A stretch of 64,000 nt of DNA from Syntrophorhabdus sp. PtaB.Bin027 (GTDB lineage Bacteria; Desulfobacterota; Syntrophorhabdia; Syntrophorhabdales; Syntrophorhabdaceae), in NCBI GenBank assembly GCA_002067585.1, contig MVQO01000179.1, positions 1-64,000 of the forward strand, in the 5' to 3' direction. A program made the position numbers and the translations under genes. The first letter of the stretch is position 1; the number at the start of each line of letters is the position of its first letter. This document shows positions 7,661 through 55,870 of this stretch, in pieces. The notes under the pieces were generated by a model. The model saw nothing but the letters and a program-made list of their open reading frames with translations, made no database searches and was not told the origin of the DNA.

Positions 7661-7713
7661 ACACACTCCTCTCTTCCTGTCTGGTGAGCCATACGTTTCA
7701 TTATTATATGCAA

Positions 7714-24037: not shown

Positions 24038-24814
24038 TTATTCAATCCTGGTCTCTTTAGCGAGCTGAAGCCTCTCAAGGGCATCAATAACAGGCAATAT
24101 CACCGCACCCGACTGAGCGGCATATTTGACAACTTCTGTGAAGAAGTGAGGTGTACAACCGTATGGTGATGGTTTCTCTGTAACATCATGTGTTGCGAAA
24201 ATGAGCCATCCTGAGGATGAAATGCTGTGATCGATTATCTTTTTTATCGATTCAATATCCACGTTATTTCTCTTGTCAATAAAATACGCCTTAAGAAGAT
24301 TCAGATCTGCAAATCCCACGTTAGGTATCTGCCCCCCACCCCTGCAACAAAGAAAATGTTTTTCAAGTTGTGACTTGACAGATGGCCTTGGCACACCTAT
24401 CGGATATGCAAACGTTTTGAAACAGATTCCGGGTATAATTGACTCGAGTACCAGCTTGTTCCTTGTAATCGACTCAATAAACTTTTTGGGGTTTGTTTGC
24501 CATGTATAAAGATGATCAAATGTATGGCAACCAAGCTCATGTCCCTCATTAACTGCACGCAAGAGGTCATCAATAGACGCGATGGTTCCAACTTCTGTGG
24601 TTGCGCCGAGCAATCCAAGTGATACAAAATATGTGGCTCTAGCCCCATAGGAATGTAAGATATTTCCTCCTGTATGAAATGCCGTTATTGGCGCATCATC
24701 AAAGGTAAAGGAAATTAGTGGAACTTGCGTCTCTATCGAAACCATACGTCGATTGAGTCGATAGGCCACCAACCTACGGTATTTGCTGACAACCTTAGAA
24801 AGAATTGTGCTCAT
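24038..24814 (-). CDS. Polysaccharide deacetylase (NodB/CE4 family)
   Basis: 258 residues. The motif set is complete: TFDDAP (catalytic and metal Asp), GHELGCHTFDHL (HxxxH metal site) and FAYPIG. CE4 enzymes remove N- or O-acetyl groups from sugars using a metal. There is no signal peptide, so it may act on lipid-linked or nucleotide-linked intermediates. It overlaps the Wzy/ligase gene by 4 bases. Confidence 0.9.
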   Translation of the reverse strand: MSTILSKVVSKYRRLVAYRLNRRMVSIETQVPLISFTFDDAPITAFHTGGNILHSYGARATYFVSLGLLGATTEVGTIASIDDLLRAVNEGHELGCHTFDHLYTWQTNPKKFIESITRNKLVLESIIPGICFKTFAYPIGVPRPSVKSQLEKHFLCCRGGGQIPNVGFADLNLLKAYFIDKRNNVDIESIKKIIDHSISSSGWLIFATHDVTEKPSPYGCTPHFFTEVVKYAAQSGAVILPVIDALERLQLAKETRIE

Positions 24815-26175
24815 GCAGTTTGTTTAATGCCATTCGCTGCATCAAGTTTCGTGGTTTCGTTGACAAAGTGCTTCTGACTGTTGGCTTCAGTTATGCCAAA
24901 CAATAAAAGTAGCCACATGTTGTTTATTCCATAGAATGAAGCCTCTGTATAGTTGTAAAGAAGGGCAGACACGATGAAACAAAGGCTTAACATACCAAGG
25001 GGGTAATCGACAATAAGCTGTCGTCTAACCTTGAGCAGGCCTGCCAAGATAATTGCACCCGTAAAGAATAGACCTATATAACCAAGGTTCAGATATTGTT
25101 CAAGATACCCATTGTGGGCCTGATTAATGGTCCTTCCCGTAAATCCCCATATTACTTGGAGTCGTTCGCCCATCCAAAAACTATAGTAGCCGGCACCCAT
25201 AATTGGGTTCGTGACCATACCCATGAGAAATACCCATATGGGCACCCGTGTCGTGAGGCTTCTGTCACGTCCGAGGAGATCAAGTACCAGGTCTGTCAAA
25301 CTAAAGGTTACCTCCAAAAGAAAAAAAACTGGAATAAAAACAACTAGAAAAGTTATTATGTTTCTTGGCCTTTTAACAAACATTTCGACACGACTCGCAA
25401 GAAGCAAAAACACCACAACCACCAAACAGACGATGGCGGTCGCACTCTTGGAAAGATTAAGAAGCCAAACAGTCAAGACCATGAGGATAAGATCAGCTAT
25501 ATTTTCCTGCCAGTTCCATCTAAACTTATTTTTGTATTTCAAAAGATATTTCCACGAAAAATAAATGCCACAAATCAAACACAACATGCCAAGGGAATTC
25601 TTTTGCTGGCCAACACCAGTTGCATACAATTCTCCAGTGCTCTCGTGGAATTGCCGCCCCAGTGTAGGAAAATACTTAAAAAATACGATCGACAATGGTA
25701 GCCACGCCACTGCAAGACGCCTTAAAATGCTGTCAATTGCCTCTACTGGACGCCTGTCGGTCAGAATGACCAGTACCATGATTGGATTGCCTAACTCTTT
25801 AATCCATCTTTTAAATGATACAAAGGGGAAATCAGACCATACAATACTGACCCCGCAATAGAGAAAATAAAGCCATATCCATTTATTCTGCCTGACCAAC
25901 AAATTCCAGTCAATCTTTCTCCTGGATAAAACGTACAGGCCGCCAACAATCAACAAGGTAAAAACTATGGCATCAAGCGGGCTTCCCTCGTGATAGGCCT
26001 CTAATTGAGAGGGAGACCAATTCAACCATTGAGAAACATACCGACTACCGGCCAAGAACATCCATATTAAGGGAATCCACAACTCATGTGATGGACCATC
26101 TTTTGTCTTGATATCTATCCAAAAGATGTAACCTATAAAAAGAAGGCAGAGAAAAAGTGCAAGTTGAGGTGGCAT
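24811..26175 (-). CDS. O-antigen ligase/polymerase family protein (Wzy/WaaL-like)
   Basis: 454 residues with about 10-12 membrane helices. The Wzy_C block is clear: VPIWVFLMGMVTNPIMGAGY followed by AHNGYLEQYLNLGYIGL, where the His-Asn pair is a family hallmark. The protein either polymerises repeat units or ligates them to a lipid acceptor on the periplasmic side. Presence of Wzx and Wzz in the locus favours polymerase. Confidence 0.85.
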   Translation of the reverse strand: MPPQLALFLCLLFIGYIFWIDIKTKDGPSHELWIPLIWMFLAGSRYVSQWLNWSPSQLEAYHEGSPLDAIVFTLLIVGGLYVLSRRKIDWNLLVRQNKWIWLYFLYCGVSIVWSDFPFVSFKRWIKELGNPIMVLVILTDRRPVEAIDSILRRLAVAWLPLSIVFFKYFPTLGRQFHESTGELYATGVGQQKNSLGMLCLICGIYFSWKYLLKYKNKFRWNWQENIADLILMVLTVWLLNLSKSATAIVCLVVVVFLLLASRVEMFVKRPRNIITFLVVFIPVFFLLEVTFSLTDLVLDLLGRDRSLTTRVPIWVFLMGMVTNPIMGAGYYSFWMGERLQVIWGFTGRTINQAHNGYLEQYLNLGYIGLFFTGAIILAGLLKVRRQLIVDYPLGMLSLCFIVSALLYNYTEASFYGINNMWLLLLFGITEANSQKHFVNETTKLDAANGIKQTA

Positions 26176-26247: not shown

Positions 26248-27963
26248 TTAAGGACTGTCTACGAAAAACCTGTTGACAAGCTCGGCAGTAAGAGCACTAG
26301 CAATCTCGTTTGTATAATCACTTTCCCCCCGTATGTGAGTTTCAACACATTGTTCGAGGAAACTTTTATTGATATGTGGTCTTTCCAATGAACGTTTGTC
26401 GAGGAGAACCTCTCTAACCCAGCCTGATAGTTCATTGCAAAACCATTGTCCCGGATAGGCAGGGTAATTCTCATGGTCTCGTTTTCGCAAGAAACCCAAC
26501 AAAGAACCCAGAACTCCTCTTACCTTGGAATCAGTCTTTTCTGCAAGGAGAGGATTTCCGTCCCGTATCAGCCTCACACAAGTTCCTTCATCTTCTCTGA
26601 CTTCGTCAAGGGCTCTGTACATAAGGCCCACAAGGTCATTGTCCAACAATGGTGTCCTAACTGCCATTTGAGACTGGCCTATGGACAGCTTTCCCGAACA
26701 GGACCACGGAATTGCCTTACTCAAACTAAACGTTAAACTGTCTGATGATAACTCTTTGAATCGACCTGCTACCTCTTTTACCACATTCAAAAACTCACGG
26801 TTAAATAAATGTTCATCCAGGCTACTGCTGTGTATCAGGCGATCTTTCCTCAAGACCACGCCGCCATAGGTACCTGTTACTTGAATAGGAGCTATCTCCC
26901 GTGCCCGCTCATGAAAATAAAGCTCAGCCGCACCAGATATATCAACAGCGCCATCGGAAATAAACAATACATCTTGCATCAGCCTGGGATATTCTGTAAC
27001 AAAATTGTCATCAGGCGCTATCATGTGCAGCGCCTGACCTGTAACTTCCGCTATTTGTCGTGCTATTTTTAAATCTTCGGTATTCACAAAATGCCCACTG
27101 AGCGTATAACACGGAACCTTCTCGGGTCCATAAAGGGCATTGGCAAGGATTACCCTTATCCCCAGATCCTTTGACAGGGGTATTCCTATTCTGTCTTCTG
27201 CCCTGAAATAGCGCTTTAAAAGCTTCTGTAGAGTGTAAACCAACCTCTCGTAATGAAACTCGTTCTCCAGTAAGGGCTGAGTCTCCAGATTAGATGGGTG
27301 GAAGTAAGTCTTTTTGTCAATCCTGCCATCTTCTTCAAATATCCAGGCTGATCCTCCCGGAAGCAAAAAAATATCTTGGAACAATGATCTGTTATCAAGG
27401 ACGCATCCGTACGAAAAAAACTCGGCCAGACTATGTATATTTATCTGCTTCGCATCAGACGGGAGAACCCCAAGTATTGCCTTTGCTTCGGTGGAAAAGT
27501 AAAAGGCACCCTTGCCTTCATAATAGTAAAGCCTGTGGAGTCCGTATCTATCATTAAAAAGAATAACCTTTCCATTTCGTCGATCTATCAGCAGTCCATG
27601 AAAATTGCCATTCAGCATGAGCAAAAAATCTTCGCCCCATTCTTCGTACATATGAACTATATACGAGGCATTTTTCTTATCATATGAGTGGTTTCTTTTT
27701 TTTATTTCATCCATATCTTCTGGATCATTGAAGTTTTCACCGGAATAAATAAGTGTAATATCTTTTTTTTCATTATTGATTGGCCCACAGTCAGAAAAAG
27801 CTCCTTTGTGACATGTCCAACCCACGTATACACCGCAATCGGCAAATGCAAGTTTCCCACTGTGATAGAATGCCTCCATGTGCAAAAAACCGCGCATTAA
27901 CTCAAGCTCATTATTGTTTACTTCTTTTGATCTTTTACTTATTATTCCTAAAATACCGGGCAT
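26248..27963 (-). CDS. Asparagine-synthetase-like protein, degenerate in both domains
   Basis: 571 residues in AsnB layout: an N-terminal Ntn-glutaminase-like domain (to about 210) and a synthetase (PP-loop) domain. The protein begins MPGILGI, so the glutaminase Cys that follows Met is Pro, and the RGPD motif is missing; FNDRYGLHRLYYYEG is retained. The ATP pyrophosphatase loop, normally SGGxDS, reads PLSKDLGIR near residue 262. It is paralogous to 31127-32968 (shared REIAP, ISGAAELY, CYTxSG). A transferase role is doubtful; a structural partner of the paralogue is possible. Confidence 0.8.
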   Translation of the reverse strand: MPGILGIISKRSKEVNNNELELMRGFLHMEAFYHSGKLAFADCGVYVGWTCHKGAFSDCGPINNEKKDITLIYSGENFNDPEDMDEIKKRNHSYDKKNASYIVHMYEEWGEDFLLMLNGNFHGLLIDRRNGKVILFNDRYGLHRLYYYEGKGAFYFSTEAKAILGVLPSDAKQINIHSLAEFFSYGCVLDNRSLFQDIFLLPGGSAWIFEEDGRIDKKTYFHPSNLETQPLLENEFHYERLVYTLQKLLKRYFRAEDRIGIPLSKDLGIRVILANALYGPEKVPCYTLSGHFVNTEDLKIARQIAEVTGQALHMIAPDDNFVTEYPRLMQDVLFISDGAVDISGAAELYFHERAREIAPIQVTGTYGGVVLRKDRLIHSSSLDEHLFNREFLNVVKEVAGRFKELSSDSLTFSLSKAIPWSCSGKLSIGQSQMAVRTPLLDNDLVGLMYRALDEVREDEGTCVRLIRDGNPLLAEKTDSKVRGVLGSLLGFLRKRDHENYPAYPGQWFCNELSGWVREVLLDKRSLERPHINKSFLEQCVETHIRGESDYTNEIASALTAELVNRFFVDSP

Positions 27964-28069
27964 GAAAACATCTCATTCTAATTTGACATTGTGTTTATGC
28001 TCTATGCAATTATGATGTTAAATTATCTAAAGAGCTGATGGAACCCCTGGTGGCTTATTAATATTTTAT

Positions 28070-28972
28070 TCAATGTTTGCTCTTCGAGTATTTTATGGAA
28101 TACAGGGTTTTACGGGCTCTTCTCAAATATTTTGTCAGTTTCTGCGGAAGGAGATTTTTGACCCCCTTATGAAGCCCTAATGTTAACATACAGCTACCGA
28201 ACGGGCTTATGGGAACATAATAGCGGGGAATAATAATGTTTTCAAAGCCATTAAATTTTTTGAATTCCTGCAAGCTGTCGCTGCCCAATTTTCCATAATC
28301 ATATTTTGCATATGTCAGAAAAGGTACTTTCTTTGCTGCACATATCTCCACTGCTTTAGCAAGCAGAAGATTCATTGGTGATTTGTCTCTGTGGCGCTCT
28401 TTACCCAAAATACCCATGGTTCTTGCGTATCTGTCTGTATATACTACTTTTATATAGCCAATCAGTTCTCTCTGGTAATATGCCCCTATAAAGTCGGCTC
28501 TGTCCAGAAACGTGCTGTTCAGCCTTCTTACTGTCTCAAGGTCCATGCCGTAATATTTATTTTTTCTTTCTTGTTTGATACGTACTTCATTATAAATATC
28601 CGATATTCCTTTCACCAATTCTTCGTCAAAGCAGACATGCCTTATCTCTACTCCCGTTTTCTGGGCTTTCTTAATTCTGTTTCTTGATTGCTTCGTGATC
28701 TGATTTTCCTGCCAATACTGATAGGTTTTTATTGGAATCGCTGCGACGTTATCCCATTCCATGAAGAAATCATATTTTGGCCTGGATTCCGGCAACCTTT
28801 GAACAAAAGTAAAGAGGTCTAACCTCATTCCACTTTTCTTGAGATCATCCGCGACCGACTGAGGGTCATCAACATCTTGATCCCATTCTTCTTTGACTTC
28901 AGCAATCTTAAAATATTTACCCTTTATAATCAGCTCTGTACCATTACTTTCTGTAACATCAAACGCTTTCAT
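28070..28972 (-). CDS. FemAB/GNAT-like acyl- or aminoacyl-transferase
   Basis: 300 residues; AGGTG lies 9 bases before the ATG. The C-terminal half (about 125-270) has a GNAT-like fold of the FemAB/BioF2 kind (FLDRADFIGAYYQRELIGYI, YAKYDYGKLGSDSLQEFKKF, FENIIIPRYYVP). Family members transfer amino acids from aminoacyl-tRNA or acyl groups from CoA to peptidoglycan or sugars. Close to the AsnB-like and ATP-grasp genes, it could put an amino acid or acyl group on the glycan; that is inference. Confidence 0.65.
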   Translation of the reverse strand: MKAFDVTESNGTELIIKGKYFKIAEVKEEWDQDVDDPQSVADDLKKSGMRLDLFTFVQRLPESRPKYDFFMEWDNVAAIPIKTYQYWQENQITKQSRNRIKKAQKTGVEIRHVCFDEELVKGISDIYNEVRIKQERKNKYYGMDLETVRRLNSTFLDRADFIGAYYQRELIGYIKVVYTDRYARTMGILGKERHRDKSPMNLLLAKAVEICAAKKVPFLTYAKYDYGKLGSDSLQEFKKFNGFENIIIPRYYVPISPFGSCMLTLGLHKGVKNLLPQKLTKYLRRARKTLYSIKYSKSKH

Positions 28973-29171
28973 ATACTATCGCACCTGCTACATCTTGGCA
29001 CAAATGTATTCGACCACACTATCGATTGCGGTTTTTTGCGCAACAAAAAAACAACAAAATAATCTTACACGTTCATTGACAGGTTATTGCAAGAATTAAG
29101 CGGGGTCATCTTTGTTGCATGTACTAGAAGCATACCAACAAATAATTCTTTGGCAAACCCAATTGTATTTT

Positions 29172-30707
29172 TTATTTCACAAGTTTAAATCCTTTGGGTG
29201 CTGATATGTCAGGACTGGGTGGCATGGGACTGTCGGTGATCAGCGGATGTGGGTAAGGGAATGGTTTATATGTGCTATTTATTCCACTACAGTTTAAAGG
29301 TTTTGTAGTTGCATGGTAACAGAAATCCCTGTTGTTTTGAATATGGGTTTTGTTATTGAAATCATCTCTCACCACAGGATTAGTGGGATTACCGTTATAT
29401 GTGTTGTTCCAGAACAATGACGGGTATTTGGTCAACTGACCACGTATCGTGCCGTTAGGCGCAACGCCAATCTGGTCACGACAGGGATAGCCTGAACCAT
29501 CTTCGTTCCCGTCTAAGTTCTGGCAGGACCCTGCCTCTCCCCCGCAATCAGCATCACTTGAGCAGGAAATTGCGGCCGTCTTTGTACCAAGGCATATCTT
29601 TTTCGTAGATGAGCCACATCTGTCGCCCCAAGGAGATATATGTTGGTACTTTTCCATCGACCTGTCATTTTGCAAAACTATGGCTGTTGTTCCACTCCAC
29701 ATACCATTTGTTGACCGCGCTCCGTTTCTTGTCTCGAGAATGGTGTTATTATATATAATATGTGTCCCACCACGAAGGAAAAACCTTGGATCTGCTGAAT
29801 ATGCTTGTACATCTACTAGACGCACCGTATTGTTATATGCTTCGTACTGGACTATACCCCTATCCGAAGTTGTCGCATCATGCCCACCCAAATAATAATT
29901 TGTTATGTCGTTGTATCGTACGACAATCCGTCCACCGTTCTCGCCATCGCAAAACATTGTGTTTACGTCCGAATTTGATTTTGTGGCCACATTATCCTCA
30001 AAATACACGGCGTCCTCTGTTCCTACGCTTATAGCTCTGTTCCATGATTGATTCGCTTGAGCTTTGACGCCTTCCCACACAGTGTTTGCTTGATGACCGA
30101 TATAGTAATTATTGTGGTCGATAACCCCATAAGTATATCCATAAATTCTGATCCCTCTCGGCGACCCTGCTGCTCTGGTTGTGTTAAAATTGTTATGGTC
30201 TATCCTGAATCCGCCACCCGTGCTTGGCTTGGATGTGCCTTTCACATAAATAACACCGTCATATCCCGTAAAAGCACCAGTAAACTTGATGTTGGCGATG
30301 CGAAATTTCTTATCAGCTGTGCCGGTAATAACAATCGCAGAACTGAGACCTGAACCTTTAATTGAAGTCATTTCCGCACTCCCGAATGAGGGTATAGTAC
30401 CACTGCCTAAAATGTTGAGTGAGGTCACTTTTGTAAATCCATTTGACATGTTTATAGTCAATGGGCTAGACCATGTAGTAGAACAAGCAGGGAGATTAAT
30501 TGTTACATCCCCAATTCTACTTGATGCATCTGCTACGCATGCTGCCACGTCTGAATTAGCACAGGATGTGGGCATACCTGTATTGTCTGCCCAAATGCAA
30601 GCCCCACAAACATTGTTCACAAACCCGAAAATAATAAAAACACAAACGAACAACTTAAATACTATTTTGCTTTTGTCCATTCCAACAAATGAGCAATTAT
30701 TTATCAT
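29172..30707 (-). CDS. Secreted right-handed parallel beta-helix protein
   Basis: 511 residues with AGGAGA about 8 bases before the ATG and a signal peptide ending near VCGA. Short turns such as FRIDHNNFN, GVIDHNNYYIG, RIVVRYNDITNYY and IVQYEAYNNTV are typical of pectate-lyase/polysaccharide-modifying beta-helices. There are several Cys (CIWADNT, CANSDVAAC), suggesting disulfides. No DPHD motif of mannuronan C5-epimerases is visible, so despite the nearby AlgD-like gene an epimerase call is not supported. It may be a lyase or glycan-binding protein. A consensus sigma-54 promoter lies upstream. Confidence 0.7.
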   Translation of the reverse strand: MINNCSFVGMDKSKIVFKLFVCVFIIFGFVNNVCGACIWADNTGMPTSCANSDVAACVADASSRIGDVTINLPACSTTWSSPLTINMSNGFTKVTSLNILGSGTIPSFGSAEMTSIKGSGLSSAIVITGTADKKFRIANIKFTGAFTGYDGVIYVKGTSKPSTGGGFRIDHNNFNTTRAAGSPRGIRIYGYTYGVIDHNNYYIGHQANTVWEGVKAQANQSWNRAISVGTEDAVYFEDNVATKSNSDVNTMFCDGENGGRIVVRYNDITNYYLGGHDATTSDRGIVQYEAYNNTVRLVDVQAYSADPRFFLRGGTHIIYNNTILETRNGARSTNGMWSGTTAIVLQNDRSMEKYQHISPWGDRCGSSTKKICLGTKTAAISCSSDADCGGEAGSCQNLDGNEDGSGYPCRDQIGVAPNGTIRGQLTKYPSLFWNNTYNGNPTNPVVRDDFNNKTHIQNNRDFCYHATTKPLNCSGINSTYKPFPYPHPLITDSPMPPSPDISAPKGFKLVK

Positions 30708-31126
30708 AAAAAATCTCCTTTCTTTCTGAATACGTTATGGTACAAATTTTTTTTAAAAAAAGCCAAGTATCATTCTTCATAAACAATCAGATACAAAAAA
30801 CTAATCTATACCATAGCAGAAGAACTTGTTAATTCAAAATGATGATTGTCAAGTTCATTTAGCCATCCAAATTGATATGAGCTCTTTGAGTGAATGACTT
30901 TATTTGCTATTCTAGCAAACTATGTGCCAAGACACTATGATACCTTTTGTAGTGCGATGCAGGCAGGCGCGACCTACTTTCAATTGTATTTTTGTTAACG
31001 CTTTATTGCATGAAATTCCCTACATTTAGCGCCAACTTATGCAGGTTTCCACCACTTATCTCGTGAGCATTCGTTCACAATACACTGTAATAGATTTTAG
31101 CCCTTAAACACCTTCCTTAAACTACA
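30708..31126. other. 419-base intergenic region with a sigma-54 promoter
   Basis: AT-rich gap between the second AsnB-like gene and the beta-helix gene. It contains the sigma-54-type site at 30914-30929 and the ribosome-binding site of the beta-helix gene. I saw no open frame of interest and no clear terminator. The stretch upstream of the promoter (about 30940-31060) is where an enhancer-binding regulator could bind. Confidence 0.6.
30914..30929 (-). promoter_or_regulatory. Sigma-54 (RpoN) promoter, perfect consensus
   Basis: On the minus strand the sequence is TGGCAC-ATAGT-TTGCT, a complete match to TGGCAC-N5-TTGCW with correct GG/GC spacing. It points at the beta-helix gene, whose ATG at 30707 is about 210 bases downstream. 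Sigma-54 promoters need an activator ATPase; none is encoded in the window. Confidence 0.8.
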
Positions 31127-32968
31127 TCAACACTCATCGCAATAGTTCGTTTCTATTAACAACCGTTGAATTAATTCGCAGGAGAGTGCATAGTGTATCT
31201 CAAGGGTATAATTTCCCTGACCATCGGTGTGGTCCTGCACCATTTTTTCAAGAAAACGCCTACTCAGGTAAGGCCTAGTGAGAGCACTTTCGTCAAGTAA
31301 AATATTCCGTACGTATCTAGACAATTTGTCTCGATACCAGATACGGAAGTGATAAAATTTGTGCTTTCCGAGGAAAAACTTTTCGAGATGCAGAGGTGAC
31401 AGGGCGCCATCAACACTCGCCAACCACTGAGGCATTCCATAATCGTAGGCGTATTCAGCCTTAAATGTAAACTCCCGGTATAAATGGTTCACTTTTGTCC
31501 ACAGTGGTATAGGGCGATACAGCATACCACGGTCAGTCGCTATTTTCCCCAGCGCAGAACTGCCTTCGGTAATCAGACGTAAAGAAAGCTCCTTGCTGTT
31601 AACTGCGGTATCCTGTGTTTGAAAGGCAAGGGCAACAAGATTGTTGTCCAAGTACGGCGCCCGCAAGGTAAGCTGCGACTGCTCAAGGGCGAAACGGGAA
31701 AAATGATGCCACGGAACCTGCTTGAAGGTAACAAATGAAAGTCTGTTTTCATTTAGTTCTTCAGCATAAGTTTGTTCGGCAGTTCTGAGGAGATGGCCAA
31801 ATTCCTGGTCAAAGAGTCGTTCGTTCAGCAATTTGGGCCTGAATGCAATTGAACTTCTGAGAACTTCCTGGCCATAGTTTCCTGTCAGGCGCACAGGCGC
31901 AATTTCCCTGGCCCGTTGATTGGCAAAAAGATCGGCTGCACCACTGACGTTCATGGCTCCATCAGTAATATATACTGTTTTCTCGGCCAAAATGGGGAAC
32001 TGGGAAATGAAGTCATCAGTCACACGGATAACATAATGGGGTTGCTGACAAATCCTGGCTATCTTGCGGGCAATCTCAACATCTACGGAATCCTGGAGCA
32101 TTCCTCCAAACGTATAACAGGGCAAAGTATTGGGGGGTAAATTCGCCCAGGCCATTATCATGCGTCCATCAACACCACCGGTGAGTGACATAGCAATGCG
32201 CTCTTTGCCCTGGAAATATCGAGGAAGAATCCTCGCCCACGTTTCCTTTAATTTATTGTAATAGTTAGAGTAGCTTAAAGATTCCCCGTTTTCCCAGGAT
32301 GACCTGTTAAAGTAGGAGGTTTTATTCGTTTTCTTCCTGTGAGAGAACCGCCATGCTGATGCCCCTGGAAGCAGAGAGATGCCTGAAAAAAGAGTTCTGT
32401 TTTGCAGCACGCAGCCGCACGAAAATGTTTCTGCCAGGCCTCTGTAATCTATTTGTCGCAGCTCCGGCAAAACTCTTAGAAGTGTCTTCGCCTCAGAGGA
32501 AAAAAAGAAACCATCTTTGTTCTCATGGTAATAGATCCGCTTCAATCCAAACCGGTCATTGAACAACGTGGCGCTCATATTCCGAAGATCTACCAGCACG
32601 CCACAAAACAAACCATTGAGTTTCTCAAAGAACTTTGTACCTGTCTCCTCGTAAAGATGGACCAGGTAGCTTGCGTCATCCGTTGAAAAGTTATGGTCTC
32701 TGGCCCTGAGGCTCTGGAGCTCCCCTGGCTCTCTAAAGTCTTCTCCTGAGAATATAAGGCAGATATTCTTTGTCTCATTCCAGACAGGCATACAATCTGA
32801 AAAAGAGCCCGAGTGGCTCACCCACCCAAGCCACAGACCGAGCTGTTCGTTAATATAAGTTCCCGAAGTGTAGAATGGTTCGTGCATCATACACCGCACC
32901 ATCTCTCGAATGGCAATTGAGTTTTTCTCAGGATAGGTAATTCCTATTATTCCGACAATGCCTGGCAT
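31127..32968 (-). CDS. Asparagine-synthetase-like amidotransferase without glutaminase Cys
   Basis: 613 residues. It starts MPGIVGI, so the Cys nucleophile is Pro and free ammonia or another nucleophile must be used instead of glutamine. The ammonia-domain remnant keeps FNDRFGLKRIYYHE. The synthetase domain has a recognisable ATP loop (MSLTGGVDGR, near residue 262) and LTGNYGQEVLR where AsnB has GEGADELFGG. AsnB relatives amidate sugar carboxylates in some O-antigens; with an AlgD-like gene two genes upstream, amide or peptide bond formation on a uronic acid is a reasonable guess. Confidence 0.8.
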   Translation of the reverse strand: MPGIVGIIGITYPEKNSIAIREMVRCMMHEPFYTSGTYINEQLGLWLGWVSHSGSFSDCMPVWNETKNICLIFSGEDFREPGELQSLRARDHNFSTDDASYLVHLYEETGTKFFEKLNGLFCGVLVDLRNMSATLFNDRFGLKRIYYHENKDGFFFSSEAKTLLRVLPELRQIDYRGLAETFSCGCVLQNRTLFSGISLLPGASAWRFSHRKKTNKTSYFNRSSWENGESLSYSNYYNKLKETWARILPRYFQGKERIAMSLTGGVDGRMIMAWANLPPNTLPCYTFGGMLQDSVDVEIARKIARICQQPHYVIRVTDDFISQFPILAEKTVYITDGAMNVSGAADLFANQRAREIAPVRLTGNYGQEVLRSSIAFRPKLLNERLFDQEFGHLLRTAEQTYAEELNENRLSFVTFKQVPWHHFSRFALEQSQLTLRAPYLDNNLVALAFQTQDTAVNSKELSLRLITEGSSALGKIATDRGMLYRPIPLWTKVNHLYREFTFKAEYAYDYGMPQWLASVDGALSPLHLEKFFLGKHKFYHFRIWYRDKLSRYVRNILLDESALTRPYLSRRFLEKMVQDHTDGQGNYTLEIHYALSCELIQRLLIETNYCDEC

Positions 32969-33148
32969 ATCATTACATTTTTACCTTCATCACAAACTTT
33001 TTGGATCACTTTGCTGGAAGCTTTTAGTTGCTCATTTCTGATAAACCCGTTTTAGCTAAGCTTTTTTTAATTTTTTTGGATAAATGTTTTACACTGCACC
33101 TTAACTCAATCAATGGAAGGTAATTTGATTACAATTCGATGTTGATTA

Positions 33149-34264
33149 TTATTTTTTATTCACAGAATTCGCAAGAGCTAAAGCTTTTTGGAATACGGGG
33201 TTATTACGATAACCACCATAAGCTATGTCCGACAATTGCATATCATAATACCGTGCGTTACCCTCTATCAATACAGGTCCGTGATTAGAAATCGCTATAT
33301 CCCAACCAATCATTGCCTGAGGCATTAAACTTGCTGCATCGAGGGCGAGTTGCTTTACATCAGCAAAAAATGGCAGCTGGAAATTTGAAAATAAAATTTC
33401 GGAATCCGGATGCATAGAGTAAGTCCTCGCTCCTTTCATTAACTTGTTTCGACCATAAGCTCTTAATCTTCCATTTTCGATGTCTATTGGTACAAAAATT
33501 CCGCCGGCCTGAATGTTATCAATGTGGCTACCAGACAACCCTACACGTAGAAATGCCGATAGTATTTCCGGCCTCTTGCCACGCGCTTTGAACGTGTCCA
33601 TCCTAATAGTATTTAGGCTTGTATCATTTAGGATACCAAGATCCATATGCTGTATGATTTCGTCTTGGATGAGAAACGATCCCTTTGACAAAAAGGTAAG
33701 GGTGTCTACCATCTGTTGCAAAGAAAAATGACTAGATATTCTAATTTTCTTGGTACTATGCCCGCAAGATCCGGTTATGGGCTTAATGAATATGGATTTA
33801 TTCATGGACTCAGCTAAAACAAATGACAGATACTCACTACCAGAATCAAAATCACTAATATCATAGCGCACCCAGTTGCCATCCTTGCAACTAAAACCAG
33901 ACTCGTAGATATTGTAGCCAAGTAAATGAGGAAGACTAATATTATGCAACGCATAATATTGATGAAAACTTAGCTTATTACCGAGGATGTCGACAGCCCC
34001 AGCGTCGCAAATGATCTCTTGGATAAGGTTCATCTCTTTTTTTCCGAGATGAGCCATCAAGTTTTTTTGCCCTTTTTTATAGAGAAAACTGGTAAAATAG
34101 TGAACAGGTAGCTCCCTCATTTTCATACACAAGAAGATAAACTCGCAAATCATTTGACATACTGGTTTTCTATCGCCATCTCTCAAGGCCATTCTCAAAT
34201 TAGACAGCCAGTGAGAATTAGGCTGCAACAAAGCGTATTGTGTTGATGTCTTTGCGTCGTGCAT
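33149..34264 (-). CDS. Sugar-transfer-associated ATP-grasp protein
   Basis: 371 residues; AAGGGGG precedes the ATG. The ATP-grasp part (about 120-360) shows IFIKPITGSCGHSTKKIRI (ATP-binding), FLIQDEIIQH, SLNTIRMDTF, GGIFVPID and MIGWDIAISNHGPVLIEGN, the last carrying metal-binding Glu and Asn. This matches the ATPgrasp_ST family found in polysaccharide loci. ATP-grasp enzymes join a carboxylate to an amine through an acyl phosphate. With the Cys-less AsnB-like pair and a FemAB-like gene it forms a possible glycan amidation/peptidylation set. Confidence 0.85.
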   Translation of the reverse strand: MHDAKTSTQYALLQPNSHWLSNLRMALRDGDRKPVCQMICEFIFLCMKMRELPVHYFTSFLYKKGQKNLMAHLGKKEMNLIQEIICDAGAVDILGNKLSFHQYYALHNISLPHLLGYNIYESGFSCKDGNWVRYDISDFDSGSEYLSFVLAESMNKSIFIKPITGSCGHSTKKIRISSHFSLQQMVDTLTFLSKGSFLIQDEIIQHMDLGILNDTSLNTIRMDTFKARGKRPEILSAFLRVGLSGSHIDNIQAGGIFVPIDIENGRLRAYGRNKLMKGARTYSMHPDSEILFSNFQLPFFADVKQLALDAASLMPQAMIGWDIAISNHGPVLIEGNARYYDMQLSDIAYGGYRNNPVFQKALALANSVNKK

Positions 34265-34392
34265 GCGCGCCCCCTTTTGTCGTTATTTTTAATGGCTACT
34301 GTCTCACATGACTTTGTGTTTAGAAAATCGCCGCAGACACAATGAATAACGCATTATTTAACTTTTTCCTAGACTGATATGTCTTCACTTTC

Positions 34393-35712
34393 TTACCAAC
34401 ATATACCGTAATATTCGCCTGGTACCCTGGCACCATCCTTAACGATTCGGACAAGATCAACCACTATCTGGTTTTCTCTTACGTGTGAGAGCACAGCAGT
34501 TTTGAACTTGTCTGTATAATTTCCTATGACTATTATGTCTGATGATTCAATCAGCATTTCGGGCGTTGGACACATCAGCGATGATATATGCGGAATTTCT
34601 TTTGTGATATACTCTTTATTGGCGCCAACCAAACCTGCCAATGACACATTTTCATCATAGATCTTTACATCAAACCCCTTGCCCAACATTGTTTCGATAA
34701 GTTCAACATGTGGACTTTCTCGCAGGTCGTCGGTTCCCGCCTTGAAGCTTAGGCCCAAAAATCCAAGTTTGAGTCCTTTATATTGCATTAGTTTTGTTAC
34801 AACCTTTTGAATCTGGCGTTTATTGCTTGGCAGGATTGCGCTCAGAACAGGTGTGTCCACATCCAGCATCTTCGATTTGTATGTAATAGCCCTTACGTCC
34901 TTTGGCAGACACGAACCACCGAAGGCAAAACCCGGCTTAAGGTAATAAGGGGACAGATTAAGCTTATCATCCATACAAAATATTTCCATCACTTTGTGCC
35001 CATCGATACCTAATTCTTTGCAAACATTTCCTACTTCATTTGCAAAAGTGACTTTGAGCGCATGGAATGAATTGTCCGCATACTTAACCATCTCTGCCAC
35101 CTTAATTTTAGTTCTGACCATCGGGCCTCCGATTGGTTTAAACATTTTTTCAAAGGGATCACCAGATGCTTTGTCATATTCTCCAATTACTGTTTTGGGT
35201 GGGTTATAAAAATCTTCTATAGAGCTTCCTTCTCTAAGGAACTCCGGTATCATGGACACCCCAAAATCAATTCCCAACTTTTTTTGTGAATTCTTCTCTA
35301 TTATTGGACACACAACGCCTTCAACTGTTCCTGGTAATACAGTGCTTCGAATTCCTATCGTAATGTAATCTTTTCTTCTTGCCAGCGCCTGGCCAATCTG
35401 CTCAGATACTCTCTCTACGAACATTAAGTTGATACTTCCATTTGGGTTGCTCGGGGTACCAACACATACAAGGACTGCTCCTGCTTTTTGTACGGCGTCG
35501 GCCCAGTCAGTTGTTGCCTGGAATTTTTTTTGGTTTACAACTTTCTTTATCAGACCTTCTATATCTTTTTCTATAATCGGGCTTCTGCCTTCGTTGATCA
35601 ATGACACCTTCGTGTCGTTAGAATCAACTCCAATCACTTCATGGCCCAATTCTGCTAGACATGCCCCTGTAACAGCACCTACGTATCCCAAGCCAAAAAT
35701 TGCAATTCTCAT
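34393..35712 (-). CDS. algD: GDP-mannose 6-dehydrogenase (AlgD-like)
   Basis: 439 residues with AAGGAG before the ATG. The start IFGLGYVGAVTGACLAELGH, the block FAFGGSCLPKDVRAITYKS with the catalytic Cys, SFKAGTDDLRESPHVEL, HISSL and the terminal GICW are closer to AlgD (GDP-mannose dehydrogenase of alginate synthesis) than to UDP-glucose dehydrogenases. It oxidises GDP-mannose to GDP-mannuronate with two NAD. No alginate polymerase (Alg8/44) is in the window, so mannuronate probably enters a heteropolymer. Confidence 0.85.
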   Translation of the reverse strand: MRIAIFGLGYVGAVTGACLAELGHEVIGVDSNDTKVSLINEGRSPIIEKDIEGLIKKVVNQKKFQATTDWADAVQKAGAVLVCVGTPSNPNGSINLMFVERVSEQIGQALARRKDYITIGIRSTVLPGTVEGVVCPIIEKNSQKKLGIDFGVSMIPEFLREGSSIEDFYNPPKTVIGEYDKASGDPFEKMFKPIGGPMVRTKIKVAEMVKYADNSFHALKVTFANEVGNVCKELGIDGHKVMEIFCMDDKLNLSPYYLKPGFAFGGSCLPKDVRAITYKSKMLDVDTPVLSAILPSNKRQIQKVVTKLMQYKGLKLGFLGLSFKAGTDDLRESPHVELIETMLGKGFDVKIYDENVSLAGLVGANKEYITKEIPHISSLMCPTPEMLIESSDIIVIGNYTDKFKTAVLSHVRENQIVVDLVRIVKDGARVPGEYYGICW

Positions 35713-37017: not shown

Positions 37018-37935
37018 TCAGTAATTTCTTGCCTTAACCGTGACGAGCTTCAACAGGGTCAACAACCTGCTGAAATGATGTATGCCTTTTATCAGCAATT
37101 TCATGGCAAGCCAGAATCCGAAAAATAATGAAAAAGGTAAAAGAAATGAATAAATTGTGCATGCCGTGAGGGATTTTGAGAAAACATAAGTTTTTTGCAT
37201 TAGTGTTAAAGGAACTTGGTATTTTAATGAAGTGCTGCCTTGAACAAAAGCCCTTCTGAAAAAATATGATTTTTTAAAACGCTCAAATGGAATGACTTCG
37301 TAAACTATTGCCTCTCTGCACCAGACAAAAATGTGACCTCTTCGATGCATTTCTCGGAAGAATTGAACATCTTCACCTTGGACACCAAAATCAGGATTGA
37401 ATGGATGCAACAAATCATCAAATATGCCTTTATTTAACAGTACGTTTCCTGTGCGCGAACTACTCCAGTGTATTTGAGTACCCGTCTCATAATTGGGTCT
37501 TTCGCAGAACTTTCCTTTGACTATCCATTGTGGCGGTTTTGATTGGAAGCTGGGCATGACAGGGCCAAGGGTCCCGTCTGACTTGAATCGAATAGTGGTT
37601 TCGTAAAGCCCACAAAGCCAATTATTTACTGGAAACTCATCATCGTCAATAAATGCAATATAGGTGCCCCGTGCGTTTTCGACAGCCTTATTTCTTGCAC
37701 GAGCTATGTTCTGAACTGGCTCCACGTAGTAGGCAATCGAGAGATTCGACTGTTCTGCAAAGGATTCCACAGTTTGACGCGCAGATTCGGCAACGTCATT
37801 ATCAACAACAACAACTGAATACTCGAAAAGACCTGCCGTTTCCTGTTGCTCAAGCTTTGACAACAATTTTTTCAGTAGAACAGGCCTTTTATAAGTACAA
37901 ATACAGACGGTTATATGCTTAACCTGTTTTGTCAT
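37018..37935 (-). CDS. Glycosyltransferase family 2
   Basis: 305 residues: ITVCICTYKRPVLLKKLLSK, VVVVDND and YIAFIDDDEFPVNNWL (DxD) indicate a GT-A enzyme. After the catalytic domain there is at least one hydrophobic membrane-like segment (about 255-285, FLLPFSLFFGFWLAMK), so it is probably membrane attached. Confidence 0.85.
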   Translation of the reverse strand: MTKQVKHITVCICTYKRPVLLKKLLSKLEQQETAGLFEYSVVVVDNDVAESARQTVESFAEQSNLSIAYYVEPVQNIARARNKAVENARGTYIAFIDDDEFPVNNWLCGLYETTIRFKSDGTLGPVMPSFQSKPPQWIVKGKFCERPNYETGTQIHWSSSRTGNVLLNKGIFDDLLHPFNPDFGVQGEDVQFFREMHRRGHIFVWCREAIVYEVIPFERFKKSYFFRRAFVQGSTSLKYQVPLTLMQKTYVFSKSLTACTIYSFLLPFSLFFGFWLAMKLLIKGIHHFSRLLTLLKLVTVKARNY

Positions 37936-38006: not shown

Positions 38007-39182
38007 TTATGTTCTTTGCATTTCGCGAAGCAGATGAGAAAGTGCTTTATACATTGTTGCCTGTCCCCAGTGAAGCATTGGGGTCTTTGCTTTTATGCCA
38101 CCAGGGTAGATACGGTAATAAAAATGCCCATCCCGGGCCTGCATATTGTCAATTGTCCATAGGGCAACTTTCTCCGCAAGTTTGAATGAATCGGGGTCTT
38201 CTTTGGAAAACATTACAAGTGTATCAATTGCCTGTGAGGCACACTGTATGTCGATGGGGTATGCCCGATTGTGATAGTACTTTGGACAACCGGATTTTTC
38301 AAAGAAGTTCTCTTTAAAAAAGGTAAAGCCTCTCTTCAGATGTTCCGTAAACGCGCCATCACCGACAGCATCGTTATACCGTTTCAGACTGTCAAGGTTA
38401 TAACCTGTGTGAAAATTATCAAACCAATGGTGCATGGGCTCTTCTCCATAGTACCATGATCCGTCAGGAAGCTGTCGGGTACAACTGTATATCATTGCCT
38501 CTCTGGCCACAGCGAGGGCCTCTGAGTTGCCGGTTATTTTTGATGCCCGTGCCAAAAAACCGGCTCCGAGCATGTTGGAATTATGAACAGAGTTCTGTTT
38601 GAAGGCCACATAGCTCAGACAGGTTCCGTTTTCGGTTCGCTCTCTCGGCAAGTCGAGGATCCATCCAGTTATACTTTTGGCGATCTCCACGAAACGCTCC
38701 TCTTTGAACATCTGATAGGCGTCAAGATATGCATGCCCGATAAGACTTGTCCAGACGATAATAGGTTCAAGCTTTGGGAGCCTGCCCGATCGGCTTGTAA
38801 AATCAAAATGGTTTCCCCAGCTATGAAATTTGTACCGTGATGACTTGTTCCGGTCAAGCCAGTCCAGGCATTGTATAGCCTTTTCCTTATAAACCTGCTG
38901 TTTCGTTTCCCTGAACCTGGCCAGGTATCCCCAGGCCATATATCCCACTCCCTTTGTTGACTCCTGAGGTTTGACCCCAAACAAGGGACGCAGATTAATG
39001 GGGCTCTGTCTCACGACTTGTTGTAAGATTCTTTCCCCGTAAAGGGTATTAAATGTTAATGGACGAAGAAACGAGGACAGACCGTCAAAAGGCTCGTAGC
39101 CTTTGTATTCGTGCTTTTCAACCCATTTCTCCAGACGTTCTGTGCTGTCGCTCAATTTTAGTCTCGTATTTTCCAGTGCCAT
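38007..39182 (-). CDS. (Alpha/alpha)-barrel protein of polysaccharide loci, function unknown
   Basis: 391 residues, all-helical with repeated aromatic-rich helices (HSWGNHFDF, HNSNMLGAGFLARASK, DGSWYYGEEPMHHWFDNFHTGYN, FYYRIYPGG). This is the six-hairpin toroid layout of glycosidases, lyases and sugar epimerases. There is no signal peptide. Similar proteins sit in exopolysaccharide loci under uninformative names. The HHWFDNFHTGYN stretch (about residue 265) is a candidate active-site loop. The role in the pathway is not known. Confidence 0.6.
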   Translation of the reverse strand: MALENTRLKLSDSTERLEKWVEKHEYKGYEPFDGLSSFLRPLTFNTLYGERILQQVVRQSPINLRPLFGVKPQESTKGVGYMAWGYLARFRETKQQVYKEKAIQCLDWLDRNKSSRYKFHSWGNHFDFTSRSGRLPKLEPIIVWTSLIGHAYLDAYQMFKEERFVEIAKSITGWILDLPRERTENGTCLSYVAFKQNSVHNSNMLGAGFLARASKITGNSEALAVAREAMIYSCTRQLPDGSWYYGEEPMHHWFDNFHTGYNLDSLKRYNDAVGDGAFTEHLKRGFTFFKENFFEKSGCPKYYHNRAYPIDIQCASQAIDTLVMFSKEDPDSFKLAEKVALWTIDNMQARDGHFYYRIYPGGIKAKTPMLHWGQATMYKALSHLLREMQRT

Positions 39183-47082: not shown

Positions 47083-47784
47083 TTATTCCTCCGATTTACA
47101 TGGGCTTGTTTGATTTAATAAGCTTCGATTATGAGAGTTCCAGCTTACACGCATCTTGCGACAGTAAAATGCCTCGGCAAAACGCGTGGGTGAATTGCAC
47201 TCTAAACCACGAAGCCTTAGCAGCGCCCAGTATGTGTCTGCGGAAAACCACCGTTTCTCACGTTGAGACTTGAAACATTCCATGATCGTTTTGATTTTGT
47301 GTCTGCATACCGATTCCTCCAGAGGTACAAAGAAGTTCGGTGTGCCTAAATCCCCTTCGTACTTCGGTATTTCGTATTCCAAAATAAGATGATCCCGATA
47401 AGCACACCACGTGAGTTCGGCAATGACGCGATGGTCCTGATGCATATCCTCGCGACGATGGGTGAAAATGAGGTCGGGTCTGACTTCATCCTTTATCTGC
47501 TCAAAATACTCCTTGATCGACCCGTAGAATGCTGGAAAAAAAGAATCCCGGTAGTCCCGAAGAGTAACCTGCTTCTGACCGGATAATTCCATGAAACGTT
47601 CGGCACTGGCTGTTGCCTCGTGTGCACGGGATTCACTGGCACTGAAGACAACCCAGTGTACATCAATCCCCGGGTGGTTAGCCAGGATTTTCAAAAGCGT
47701 GCCGCCGCAGCCAATCTCCAGGTCATCGGCATGGGCCCCCAAACAGAGAATGCTGCGGATATCGTCAAAATGGAAGTCGTGCAT
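47083..47784 (-). CDS. PIG-L family deacetylase
   Basis: 233 residues. The metal-binding motif is GAHADDLEIGCGG near the N-terminus (the family usually has AHPDD; here Ala replaces Pro, the HxDD pattern is kept) and the second His lies in THRREDMHQDHR. PIG-L/LmbE proteins remove N-acetyl groups from sugars such as GlcNAc derivatives. Three bases separate it from the cytidylyltransferase. It likely deacetylates an intermediate of the branched-sugar pathway. Confidence 0.85.
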   Translation of the reverse strand: MHDFHFDDIRSILCLGAHADDLEIGCGGTLLKILANHPGIDVHWVVFSASESRAHEATASAERFMELSGQKQVTLRDYRDSFFPAFYGSIKEYFEQIKDEVRPDLIFTHRREDMHQDHRVIAELTWCAYRDHLILEYEIPKYEGDLGTPNFFVPLEESVCRHKIKTIMECFKSQREKRWFSADTYWALLRLRGLECNSPTRFAEAFYCRKMRVSWNSHNRSLLNQTSPCKSEE

Positions 47785-47787
47785 CGA

Positions 47788-48579
47788 TTAACGCAACTGG
47801 CTTTGGCGTCCCCACACCACCCAGGGTGCTTCACCACGGGCGTATATGTCATCCAGAAGCATTTTATCCTTATACGTATCCATGGGTCCCCAGAAGCCAT
47901 CATATTTCATTGCAGAAAGCCGACCTTCAGCGATTAACCTGCTGAAGGGCTCCTCCACAAGCTCTTCACCTGGGCCAATATAGTCAAATATATTTTTACT
48001 CATTACGAAAAAGCCACCATTAACCCAGATATCGGAACGCTCCATAGGCTCAATGCGGTTTACGTGGCCCTCGATTCCCAGATCAACCTTGTGCAAGCTC
48101 TGTTTTGTTCTAACACACAAAAAAGTAGCCGTGGCCTGTTGCCGTCGGGCAAACTCCACCAGATCAGGAAGGTTCACATCGGTTAGCACATCAGAGTAAT
48201 TTGCCAGAAACATCTCTTCACCTTCCAGGTACTTCTCTACTGCTTTGAGCCTCTGGCCAATGTTGGAATTCTGTCCTGTATCAACAAAGGTAATAGTCCA
48301 ATCGTCATCCTCGTGGTTCAGGAGTTCTACCTTCTTGAGGCCCGTACAGAGTTTGAAATCATTGGTCAGGCATTCGTTGTGGTTCAGGAAGTACTCTCTG
48401 ATCACGCTGCCCTTCCAACCAAGGCAAAGGATGAAGTCCTTATGACCGAAGTGTGCATAGTATTTCATGATGTGCCAGAGAATTGCGTGCTGGCCAATGG
48501 GGACCATCGGTTTTGGTATCGCCTCGGAATAGTCTCTTATTCTGAGGCCCTGACCGCCGCAAAACAAAACAACTTTCAT
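47788..48579 (-). CDS. rfbF: Glucose-1-phosphate cytidylyltransferase (RfbF-like)
   Basis: 263 residues. The start VVLFCGGQGLRIRDYSEAIPKPMVPIG is the nucleotide-binding loop of sugar nucleotidyltransferases; HAILWHIMKYYAHFGHKDFI and LNDGFFVMS-like text (WVNGGFFVMSK) match RfbF rather than RmlA. It forms CDP-glucose (or another CDP-sugar) from CTP and a sugar phosphate. It overlaps the methyltransferase gene by 4 bases, so the two are a translational unit. Confidence 0.85.
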   Translation of the reverse strand: MKVVLFCGGQGLRIRDYSEAIPKPMVPIGQHAILWHIMKYYAHFGHKDFILCLGWKGSVIREYFLNHNECLTNDFKLCTGLKKVELLNHEDDDWTITFVDTGQNSNIGQRLKAVEKYLEGEEMFLANYSDVLTDVNLPDLVEFARRQQATATFLCVRTKQSLHKVDLGIEGHVNRIEPMERSDIWVNGGFFVMSKNIFDYIGPGEELVEEPFSRLIAEGRLSAMKYDGFWGPMDTYKDKMLLDDIYARGEAPWVVWGRQSQLR

Positions 48580-49829
48580 GTATACACCTCCACTTCAGGG
48601 ATGGGCACAACGAACTGAGCCCCCCAATCACGGGCATAAGCCAGTTGTGCCATAATCTCATCCTTGAGATTCCAGGGCAGAATCAGGATATAGTCCGGTC
48701 GTGTCTGGGCAAGTCTCTCGGGTGGGAAGATGGGAATATGCGTACCTGGCAGGAATTGGCCTTGCTTGTACGGATTACGGTCGACCGTGTAATCGACAAA
48801 ATCCGTGCGGATACCACAATAGTTCAACAGTGTGTTTCCTTTTCCCGGTGCACCGTAGCCAGCAATGTGTTTTCCCTTGCGACGGGCAGCAATCAAAAAA
48901 TCGAGAAGCTTTCGCTTGGTCTCAGCAACACGGTCGCCAAAACCCAGGTAGGTCTCAATCTGGTCGTATCCTGCATCCATTTCCTTGCGGCGGAGTTTCT
49001 CTACCGATTGAAGCACCGGCCGGTCTGTTTCCTCTGCATGTCGGGCGTAAATGCGTAAGGATCCCCCATGAGTACCCAGTTCTTCTGCATCAAAAATGGT
49101 CAGGCCGTGGGCTGCAAAAACCCGTTCCGTAACTATAAACGAAAGGTAGCTGAAGTGTTCGTGGTAGATTGTGTCAAACTGGTTGCCTTCCATCAACCGT
49201 AGCAAGTGCGCGAACTCCATGGTGATCGTGCCACCTGGGGCGAGCAATACCTTTAGGCCATCTACGAAATCGTTCAGATCGGGCACGTGTGCCAGTACAT
49301 TGTTTCCTACCAGCAAGTCAGCCCGATTTGCCCCAACCACTAATTCCTCTGCGGTCTTACGCCCAAAAAATTTGACGAGAGAAGGGATGCCTTTTTCCTG
49401 GGCGACTTTAGCCACATTAGCCGCAGGCTCAATCCCCAGTACAGGTACCCCCTGAGCAACGAAATATTGGAGTAAGTAGCCATCATTACTGGCCACCTCT
49501 ACCACCAGGTTCTTTGGGCCGAGCGTGAATCTGTTAACTGCCATTTCCGCATATCTCCGAACATGATCAAGCCAGGAGTCTGAGTATGATGAAAAGTACG
49601 CGTATTCGCTGTAAATGTCTTCTGCCCGTACGTATTCGCGTAGTTGAACCAGCAAACAGTTTTCGCATACCAGAACGTTTAAGGGATAGAAAGGCTCCAT
49701 AGCGTCGAGCCGCTCGTACGGGACATAACTCTCACACAGCGGCGACATGCCAAGATCTACGAATGTTTTCTGCAAGGGTTGACCGCAGAACCGGCATGGA
49801 CCATAGCTTGTTTGTTGGGCTCCTATCAT
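48576..49829 (-). CDS. Sugar C-methyltransferase (TylC3/NovU type)
   Basis: 417 residues with AGGAGG before the ATG. Three parts are seen: N-terminal zinc site (CRFCGQPL and VCENCLL), SAM domain with VVEVASNDGYLLQYF (about 95-110), and a C-terminal domain GYGAPGKGNTLLNYCGI. This is the Methyltransf_13/Methyltransf_14 layout of NDP-deoxysugar C3-methyltransferases such as TylC3. It would put a methyl branch on a keto-deoxysugar made from the CDP-sugar. Confidence 0.9.
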   Translation of the reverse strand: MIGAQQTSYGPCRFCGQPLQKTFVDLGMSPLCESYVPYERLDAMEPFYPLNVLVCENCLLVQLREYVRAEDIYSEYAYFSSYSDSWLDHVRRYAEMAVNRFTLGPKNLVVEVASNDGYLLQYFVAQGVPVLGIEPAANVAKVAQEKGIPSLVKFFGRKTAEELVVGANRADLLVGNNVLAHVPDLNDFVDGLKVLLAPGGTITMEFAHLLRLMEGNQFDTIYHEHFSYLSFIVTERVFAAHGLTIFDAEELGTHGGSLRIYARHAEETDRPVLQSVEKLRRKEMDAGYDQIETYLGFGDRVAETKRKLLDFLIAARRKGKHIAGYGAPGKGNTLLNYCGIRTDFVDYTVDRNPYKQGQFLPGTHIPIFPPERLAQTRPDYILILPWNLKDEIMAQLAYARDWGAQFVVPIPEVEVYT

Positions 49830-49864
49830 TTCAGTCCTCCTGTATCAATTGTGACCGTAGCCAA

Positions 49865-49876
49865 AGACCGCGGTCT
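49865..49876. promoter_or_regulatory. 12-base perfect palindrome
   Basis: AGACCGCGGTCT lies 36 bases upstream of the methyltransferase ATG in the 74-base gap. It could be an operator; nothing else supports a regulator. Confidence 0.25.
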
Positions 49877-49903
49877 CTATCGAATTTAATTCTCCTTACG
49901 CTG

Positions 49904-51199: not shown

Positions 51200-51253
51200 T
51201 ACGCGTTCCTCCTTAAGTTCTCTAAAAGCAATTTAGCTTGTAAGCTCCATAAA

Positions 51254-52576: not shown

Positions 52577-53109
52577 TTATTAGGCTCAAAATCAGGATAC
52601 GTGTTGTCCCGTTCAGATATAAGCTGAACCTCCATAGGCCATTGTATACCAAAAGCTGGATCGTTCCATCGCACCCCGTCAGCATGATCAGGAACATAAA
52701 ACTCAGATATTTGGTAAAAAACCTCCACCTGGTCTGAAAGAGTCATGAAACCATGGGCAAATCCTTTTGGAATGTAAATCATGTTTCTTTTTTCCTGGCT
52801 TAAAGTTAAACCAAACCATTTTTTGAATGTGGGTGAGCCAGGTCGAAGATCAATTACCACATCATATATCGCACCACAGGTGCATCGGACGATCTTCACT
52901 TCCTCCCAAGGAGCAGTTTGAAAATGCATCCCCCGAAGCGTTCCTTTCTTAGGATTATAGGAGATGCTGCACTGAGCCAGTCTATTTTCAAGTCCATGGG
53001 AAGCCAATTCTTTTTGGCACCAGGTCCGGGCAAAAAAACCCCTTTCATCAGCAAGCCTCTCAGGTTCGATTATGTATACACCTTTGAGTTGAATCTCAGT
53101 GAAGATCAT
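52573..53109 (-). CDS. RmlC-like sugar 3,5-epimerase
   Basis: 178 residues, the usual RmlC length. DERGFFARTW, KGTLRGMHFQ (His of the catalytic pair), CTCGAIYDVVIDLRPGSPTF and YIPKGFAHGF are typical cupin features of dTDP-4-dehydrorhamnose 3,5-epimerase relatives. In this set a C3/C5-epimerase acting on a CDP-linked keto sugar is likely. Confidence 0.9.
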   Translation of the reverse strand: MIFTEIQLKGVYIIEPERLADERGFFARTWCQKELASHGLENRLAQCSISYNPKKGTLRGMHFQTAPWEEVKIVRCTCGAIYDVVIDLRPGSPTFKKWFGLTLSQEKRNMIYIPKGFAHGFMTLSDQVEVFYQISEFYVPDHADGVRWNDPAFGIQWPMEVQLISERDNTYPDFEPNK

Positions 53110-53131
53110 GGCAGAAACAGGTTGGGTGTTA

Positions 53132-55383: not shown

Positions 55384-55490
55384 TTTATCCTCCGCTCGTT
55401 TTAGTAAACTTCAAATGTCAATACTCAAATCACAAATAAGGTTAGAAGCAAATTTCAAATTACAATGGTCTATATGAGAAAGAAACAACA

Positions 55491-55865: not shown

Positions 55866-55870
55866 AATTG

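Follow-up and report, generated by a model that had tools for sequence, protein, structure and literature searches.

The nearest described logic to the gene pair reported here is that of the Wbp/Vim pathway of Porphyromonas gingivalis and Tannerella forsythia. In this pathway WbpS converts a uronic acid to a uronamide. Deacetylation is attributed to VimE, and the transfer of serine or glycine to the freed amine to VimA, both tentatively (PMC7468200). In exosortase-associated exopolysaccharide (EPS) clusters, genes related to VimA and genes of the AsnB type are also found as neighbours (PMC7468200). In Caulobacter, the FemX-like protein HfsK is proposed to work with the deacetylase HfsH on the holdfast (PMC5362036). 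The use of AsnB-like and GNAT-like enzymes in making amidated, aminoacylated uronic sugars is already known. The first-pass annotation of the DNA studied here, a 64,000-nt stretch of Syntrophorhabdus sp. PtaB.Bin027 (the window), held that no described pathway has its set of genes. This was too strong, since Wbp/Vim joins an AsnB-like uronamide enzyme to a GNAT-like aminoacyl transferase (PMC7468200). For an AsnB family that has lost its glutaminase site and is tied to a GNAT family of its own, as in this window, no description was found in the openly licensed literature searched.

The six genes from which an amide-forming cluster had been proposed are present as minus-strand open reading frames (ORFs) at positions 26248-35712, and the assignments of two of them, an AlgD-type dehydrogenase and an ATP-grasp protein (ATPgrasp_ST), are firm by score. 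The central genes are AsnB1 (26248-27963), a FemAB/GNAT-like transferase (28070-28972) and AsnB2 (31127-32968). With moderate confidence, we read the transferase and the glutaminase-less ligase AsnB2 as a conserved, horizontally spread EPS-modification unit.

AsnB1 and AsnB2 both start with MPGI, not MCGI. The 27 aligned members of this MPGI family were compared with E. coli AsnB (1ct9), and the glutaminase site is lost. Cys1 is replaced by Pro in all 26 proteins that show the position and Arg49 by Trp in 27 of 27; none of the 27 has Asn at position 74 (N74S in the MPGI proteins), and D98 is variable, with Asp in 5. Glutamine-dependent AsnB and WbpS require the N-terminal catalytic Cys and the Gln-binding residues (R49, N74, D98), a set that the MPGI proteins do not have. 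The alignment is a fair control for these losses, because the Cys-bearing AsnB proteins of the same loci retain the glutaminase residues. Family scores of ~105-108 bits against TIGR03108 and ~97-105 bits against TIGR01536 fall below the curated cut-offs of 817 and 267, respectively.

The PP-loop has fared differently in the two proteins. AsnB2 retains the PP-loop (TGGVDGR, within SLTGGVDGR), including Asp267 and Arg269; most relatives have TGG[LV]D[STG]R, and GG[LV]D is present in 23 of the 27. In AsnB1 the loop is gone (SKDLGIR, within PLSKDLGIR), so that AsnB2 has and AsnB1 lacks the PP-loop expected of an ATP-dependent ligase of the AsnB fold, and AsnB1 is a probable inactive paralogue. The second synthetase motif, SGEGSDE in AsnB, is mostly TG[NT][YF]G[SG]E, with Glu at 348 and Asp at 351 replaced. 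AlphaFold predicts the structure of AsnB2 with high confidence (predicted local distance difference test, pLDDT, 92.6), and Foldseek ranks the hydroxyamidotransferase TsnB9 (7ylz) first, followed by AsnB (1ct9) and then by beta-lactam (1jgt) and carbapenam synthetases. Two canonical asparagine synthases are encoded on other contigs of the same genome, which argues that the MPGI proteins are not housekeeping enzymes. A plasmid search with AsnB2 gave no match.

Two other accounts of these proteins were rejected. The AsnB tree does not support a recent tandem duplication of AsnB2 as the origin of AsnB1. The MPGI start is probably not an artefact of the search pattern MPGI[VL]GII, as loci with other starts (e.g. 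L023, L024, L025, L028, L030 and L032) still begin MPG; because their starts differ from the pattern, these six were probably found via a second one. More distant MPGI AsnB-like proteins (23-29% identity) occur at six loci (L054, L055, L056, L057, L058 and L059) in Bacteroidota, WOR-3, GN15 and Dependentiae, and most adjoin glycosyltransferase or nucleotide-sugar genes. They too have lost the glutaminase Cys, their further residue losses differ, and the glutaminase-less AsnB proteins found with glycan genes may have more than one origin.

The transferase belongs to a distinct family of its own. It had been described as FemAB-like, and by family profile it is GNAT-like; the FemAB label itself fits less well, with the window protein reaching 19 bits against FemAB (PF02388), under the Pfam gathering cut-off of 24. 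Among 25 family members, two match FemAB at E<0.01 and five match Acetyltransf_6. PaiA-type GNAT structures are matched at E 0.001-0.004, and hhalign of the family to TIGR03019 members gives 94.9%. These matches are weak but consistent, and suggest that the family carries a GNAT-type C-terminal domain. In one of the other genomes with this family (G105), a TIGR03019-like FemAB protein lies on the same contig (C6, 5618-6601), ~10 kb from the MPGI-AsnB/GNAT module.

Co-occurrence was examined in 297 genomes of the phylum, including the window's own (G000). MPGI AsnB proteins are set apart by score (>=670 bits, as against <=181 for all others) and occur in three of these genomes, G000, G105 and G179. 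The GNAT/FemAB-like family occurs in exactly the same three and in no other of the 297. These genomes represent three different taxonomic families, and in them the AsnB and FemAB-like genes are 0-2.2 kb apart. The chance of identical triples is 2.3e-7, ignoring kinship. The (alpha/alpha)6-barrel family is found in 17 genomes, including all three with MPGI AsnB.

The linkage extends well beyond the phylum. A scan of genome contigs gave 37 loci, of which 31, together with G024 from the window's own family, make up 32 close relatives (35-60% identity). Their hosts fall in at least five phyla and include Verrucomicrobiota, Acidobacteriota, several proteobacterial groups, Nitrospirota and Spirochaetota. 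By hand count, 26 of the 32 loci have the GNAT/FemAB-like gene in the same orientation at most 5 kb upstream, and in 17 it is directly adjacent; of the six other loci, three have less than 2 kb before the contig end. One culturable carrier of the pair is Acidobacterium sp. S8 (NZ_LMUM01000011.1). The (alpha/alpha)6 family is present in 19 loci. A second, Cys-bearing AsnB, scoring ~490 bits to TIGR03108 and so below the cut-off, is present in 12. Proteins of different phyla are intermingled on the AsnB tree, an indication that the module has spread horizontally.

In the working that we propose, a sugar of the repeat unit would be a uronic acid, with its carboxylate, and would also carry an amine that a CE4-type deacetylase has exposed. 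The GNAT-like enzyme would acylate this amine, the likeliest acyl group being that of an amino acid. With its ATP pyrophosphatase domain, AsnB2 would activate a carboxylate for coupling to an amine that does not come from glutamine; the candidates are an amino acid, an amino sugar and free ammonia. AsnB1 would partner it in an inactive or structural role. The unit usually also has an (alpha/alpha)6-barrel protein, a family 2 glycosyltransferase (GT2) and a Wzy, and the ATP-grasp protein and AlgD are extras particular to the locus in the window. Gene content, conserved linkage, the glutaminase losses and the retained fold are observed, and we infer the reaction of the pair, its order and its substrates; amide decoration of a sugar, as a type of chemistry, is plausible but unproven.

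Several points weigh against this working. The Asp of the SGEGSDE motif is a metal ligand in AsnB and the Glu is catalytic; this Asp is kept in just one of the 27 MPGI members, and with it and Glu 348 lost, adenylation is not assured. Because the GNAT family matches FemAB models weakly, the acyl donor may be an acyl-CoA. Divergence of the GNAT and AsnB proteins is weakly correlated (Mantel r 0.26, with 6 of 5000 permutations as high), so that partners may have been exchanged. Finally, use of ammonia alone by AsnB2 would be a simpler reading. In its plainest form, the AsnB-like enzyme would work as WbpS does, minus the glutaminase, and take free ammonia to amidate a uronic acid, and the GNAT protein would be an N-acetyltransferase for the same sugar. 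The formation of uronamides by WbpS in known pathways (PMC7468200), the UDP-glucose and UDP-N-acetylhexosamine (UDP-HexNAc)-type dehydrogenases of the genome and the WbpB/E/D-like set in the window all speak for this. However, at the 12 loci with a second AsnB bearing the glutaminase Cys, a glutamine-independent uronamide enzyme would be redundant, and we consider this version unlikely. A bolder proposal, possible but doubtful, is that the MPGI family represents a novel type of glycan amide ligase that has abandoned glutamine and has an altered synthetase site, and whose amine, aminoacyl or amino-sugar in nature, is provided via the GNAT/FemAB-like partner, yielding substituted uronamides or amide cross-links.

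The residue losses could also be taken to mean that MPGI AsnB no longer ligates and instead scaffolds or regulates the transferase and polymerase. The glutaminase site is lost and the SGEGSDE-type motif altered in all members, 4 of the 27 depart from TGG at the PP-loop, and in AsnB1 the PP-loop is gone too. On the other hand, AsnB2 and almost all its relatives retain Asp267 and Arg269 of the PP-loop and the synthetase domain is well conserved across phyla, which makes a pseudo-enzyme quite improbable. Least credible is the scheme originally proposed for these genes, in which AlgD makes GDP-mannuronate and the ATP-grasp, AsnB-like and FemAB-like proteins jointly amidate or peptidylate the mannuronate. 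The genes are contiguous on one strand, the AlgD and ATPgrasp_ST identities are secure, and an AlgD-type enzyme (53% identity) also occurs at two of the 32 loci, L027 and L034. But of the 297 genomes, 25 have ATPgrasp_ST (above its cut-off) and 4 have AlgD (E below 1e-100), and the two genes overlap the AsnB/FemAB module, and each other, only in the window's genome. AlgD, ATPgrasp_ST and AsnB as a single unit were rejected on this ground. A single one of the 32 loci has ATPgrasp_ST (25% identity), and 29 have neither gene within the flanks examined; in the phylum, three of the nearest relatives of the ATP-grasp protein adjoin a GDSL-type protein instead. Co-occurrence, the measure by which the first-pass annotation proposed that its module be judged, thus gives no support to the mannuronate and ATP-grasp part, and we regard that scheme as very unlikely. 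What remains of the amide-forming cluster is the AsnB-like/FemAB-like unit, which is strongly supported and does not include AlgD or the ATP-grasp protein.

The two excluded genes are neighbours here with no conserved link to the module. The dehydrogenase (34393-35712, minus strand) finds its best match in the GDP-mannose 6-dehydrogenase of P. aeruginosa (1mfz) with 484.7 bits over the full length (residues 1-439), compared with 228 bits for the best UDP-glucose dehydrogenase. It retains the active-site segment GFAFGGSCLPKD, and its sequence firmly indicates a GDP-mannose dehydrogenase of the AlgD type. The ATP-grasp protein (33149-34264, minus strand) scores 143.2 bits to ATPgrasp_ST (PF14397; gathering score 31.4) and has no match among PDB sequences. 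Close relatives in the phylum (34-38% identity; L130, L131 and L132) adjoin large proteins that resemble the GDSL/Ig/cellulase-like protein of the window at 5021-7666, which hints at a pairing of ATP-grasp and GDSL proteins.

The protein at 29172-30707 (minus strand) looks secreted, with a signal peptide recognised by eye, and is probably a right-handed beta-helix. This fold had been claimed outright; the window copy has no beta-helix match in Pfam and no match to PDB sequences, and a Beta_helix match is seen in one of six aligned proteins (the window copy and five relatives). Relatives with 24-35% identity recur close to the module in several loci. The (alpha/alpha)6-barrel protein (38007-39182, minus strand), frequent in the conserved module, has an epimerase/GH88/GH105-like fold and weak, unspecific PDB matches by sequence. 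It is given no activity because this fold match is common to epimerases, GH88/GH105 and GH76. Two other minus-strand genes recur with the module, a Wzy_C polymerase/ligase (24811-26175) in 14 of the 32 loci and a GT2 (37018-37935) in 10.

All of these genes sit in a minus-strand EPS cluster of approximately 60 kb that occupies most of the window. Export and chain-length proteins and an XrtA-type ATPase are encoded at 59.9-63.7 kb, and a phosphoglycosyltransferase at 57.7 kb. An ABC exporter of the Wzm/Wzt type lies at 43-46 kb, and the cluster further has glycosyltransferases, Wzx at 16.5 kb and Wzy at 24.8 kb. The XrtA-associated-type ATPase (59921-61300) scores 286 bits against a cut-off of 324. 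No exosortase was recognised in the window, and the single one found is on contig C47 of the same genome. A CE4-type, HfsH-like polysaccharide deacetylase (24038-24814, minus strand) scores 152.7 bits, below the cut-off of 400. At 54250-57557 (minus strand) a DegT aminotransferase, a hexapeptide acetyltransferase and a GFO/IDH oxidoreductase form, at the family level, a WbpE/WbpD/WbpB-like set; relatives of at least one of these enzymes occur in loci L027, L033, L035, L038 and L044. The block at 47083-54181 encodes PIG-L, nucleotidyltransferase, C-methyltransferase, DUF4910/DUF2172/HTH_47, RmlC-type epimerase and NAD-epimerase proteins. Relatives of all six (36-62% identity) stand together in L059 (candidate division GN15), and the block looks like a portable modified-sugar cassette. 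Just outside the window (contig C179, L022 7558-18270), a minus-strand ORF of 3570 residues next to EPS export genes is possibly a giant adhesin.

The genes behind amide-linked groups of bacterial polysaccharides are poorly assigned, and a compact, portable pair that is defined by strict co-occurrence and has an AsnB relative unable to use glutamine offers a clear target. If substituted uronamides are indeed formed, the MPGI family would be a nucleophile-swapped branch of AsnB in glycan chemistry, beside the beta-lactam synthetases and lasso cyclases. In beta-lactam and carbapenam synthetases and lasso-peptide cyclases, which are also AsnB-fold ligases, the N-terminal domain supplies no ammonia and the amine comes from the substrate. 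However, these differ from the window proteins in showing 13-14% identity in the structure match, another catalytic motif and an antibiotic rather than a glycan context.

The remaining comparisons are with polysaccharide systems. In HfsK and HfsH, too, a FemX-like GNAT protein and a deacetylase are paired, with a secreted polysaccharide as their target, and the deacetylase of the window is HfsH-like. HfsK differs in having two GNAT domains and binding c-di-GMP, and the available part of its description mentions no AsnB partner (PMC5362036). EPS clusters of the XrtA/PEP-CTERM type share an AsnB-like (TIGR03108) and a FemAB-like (TIGR03019) protein with deacetylase and glycosyltransferases, and the window has the XrtA-type ATPase, chain-length and export proteins. 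Its AsnB and FemAB proteins are, however, both below the family cut-offs, and no exosortase is recognised in it. WbpS of the Wbp/Vim pathway belongs to eps_aminotran_1 (TIGR03108), whereas the window AsnB proteins have no glutaminase site and score far below the cut-off of that family. On the GNAT side, the sequence comparison covered the related TIGR03019 family. There is no WbpA-type UDP-HexNAc 6-dehydrogenase in the window; two other contigs of this genome, C9 and C208, have candidates. The Wbp/Vim pathway couples AsnB-like, GNAT-like and CE4 deacetylase proteins on a Wbp-type diamino uronic sugar, and the window also has, at the family level, WbpB/E/D-like genes and a CE4 gene.

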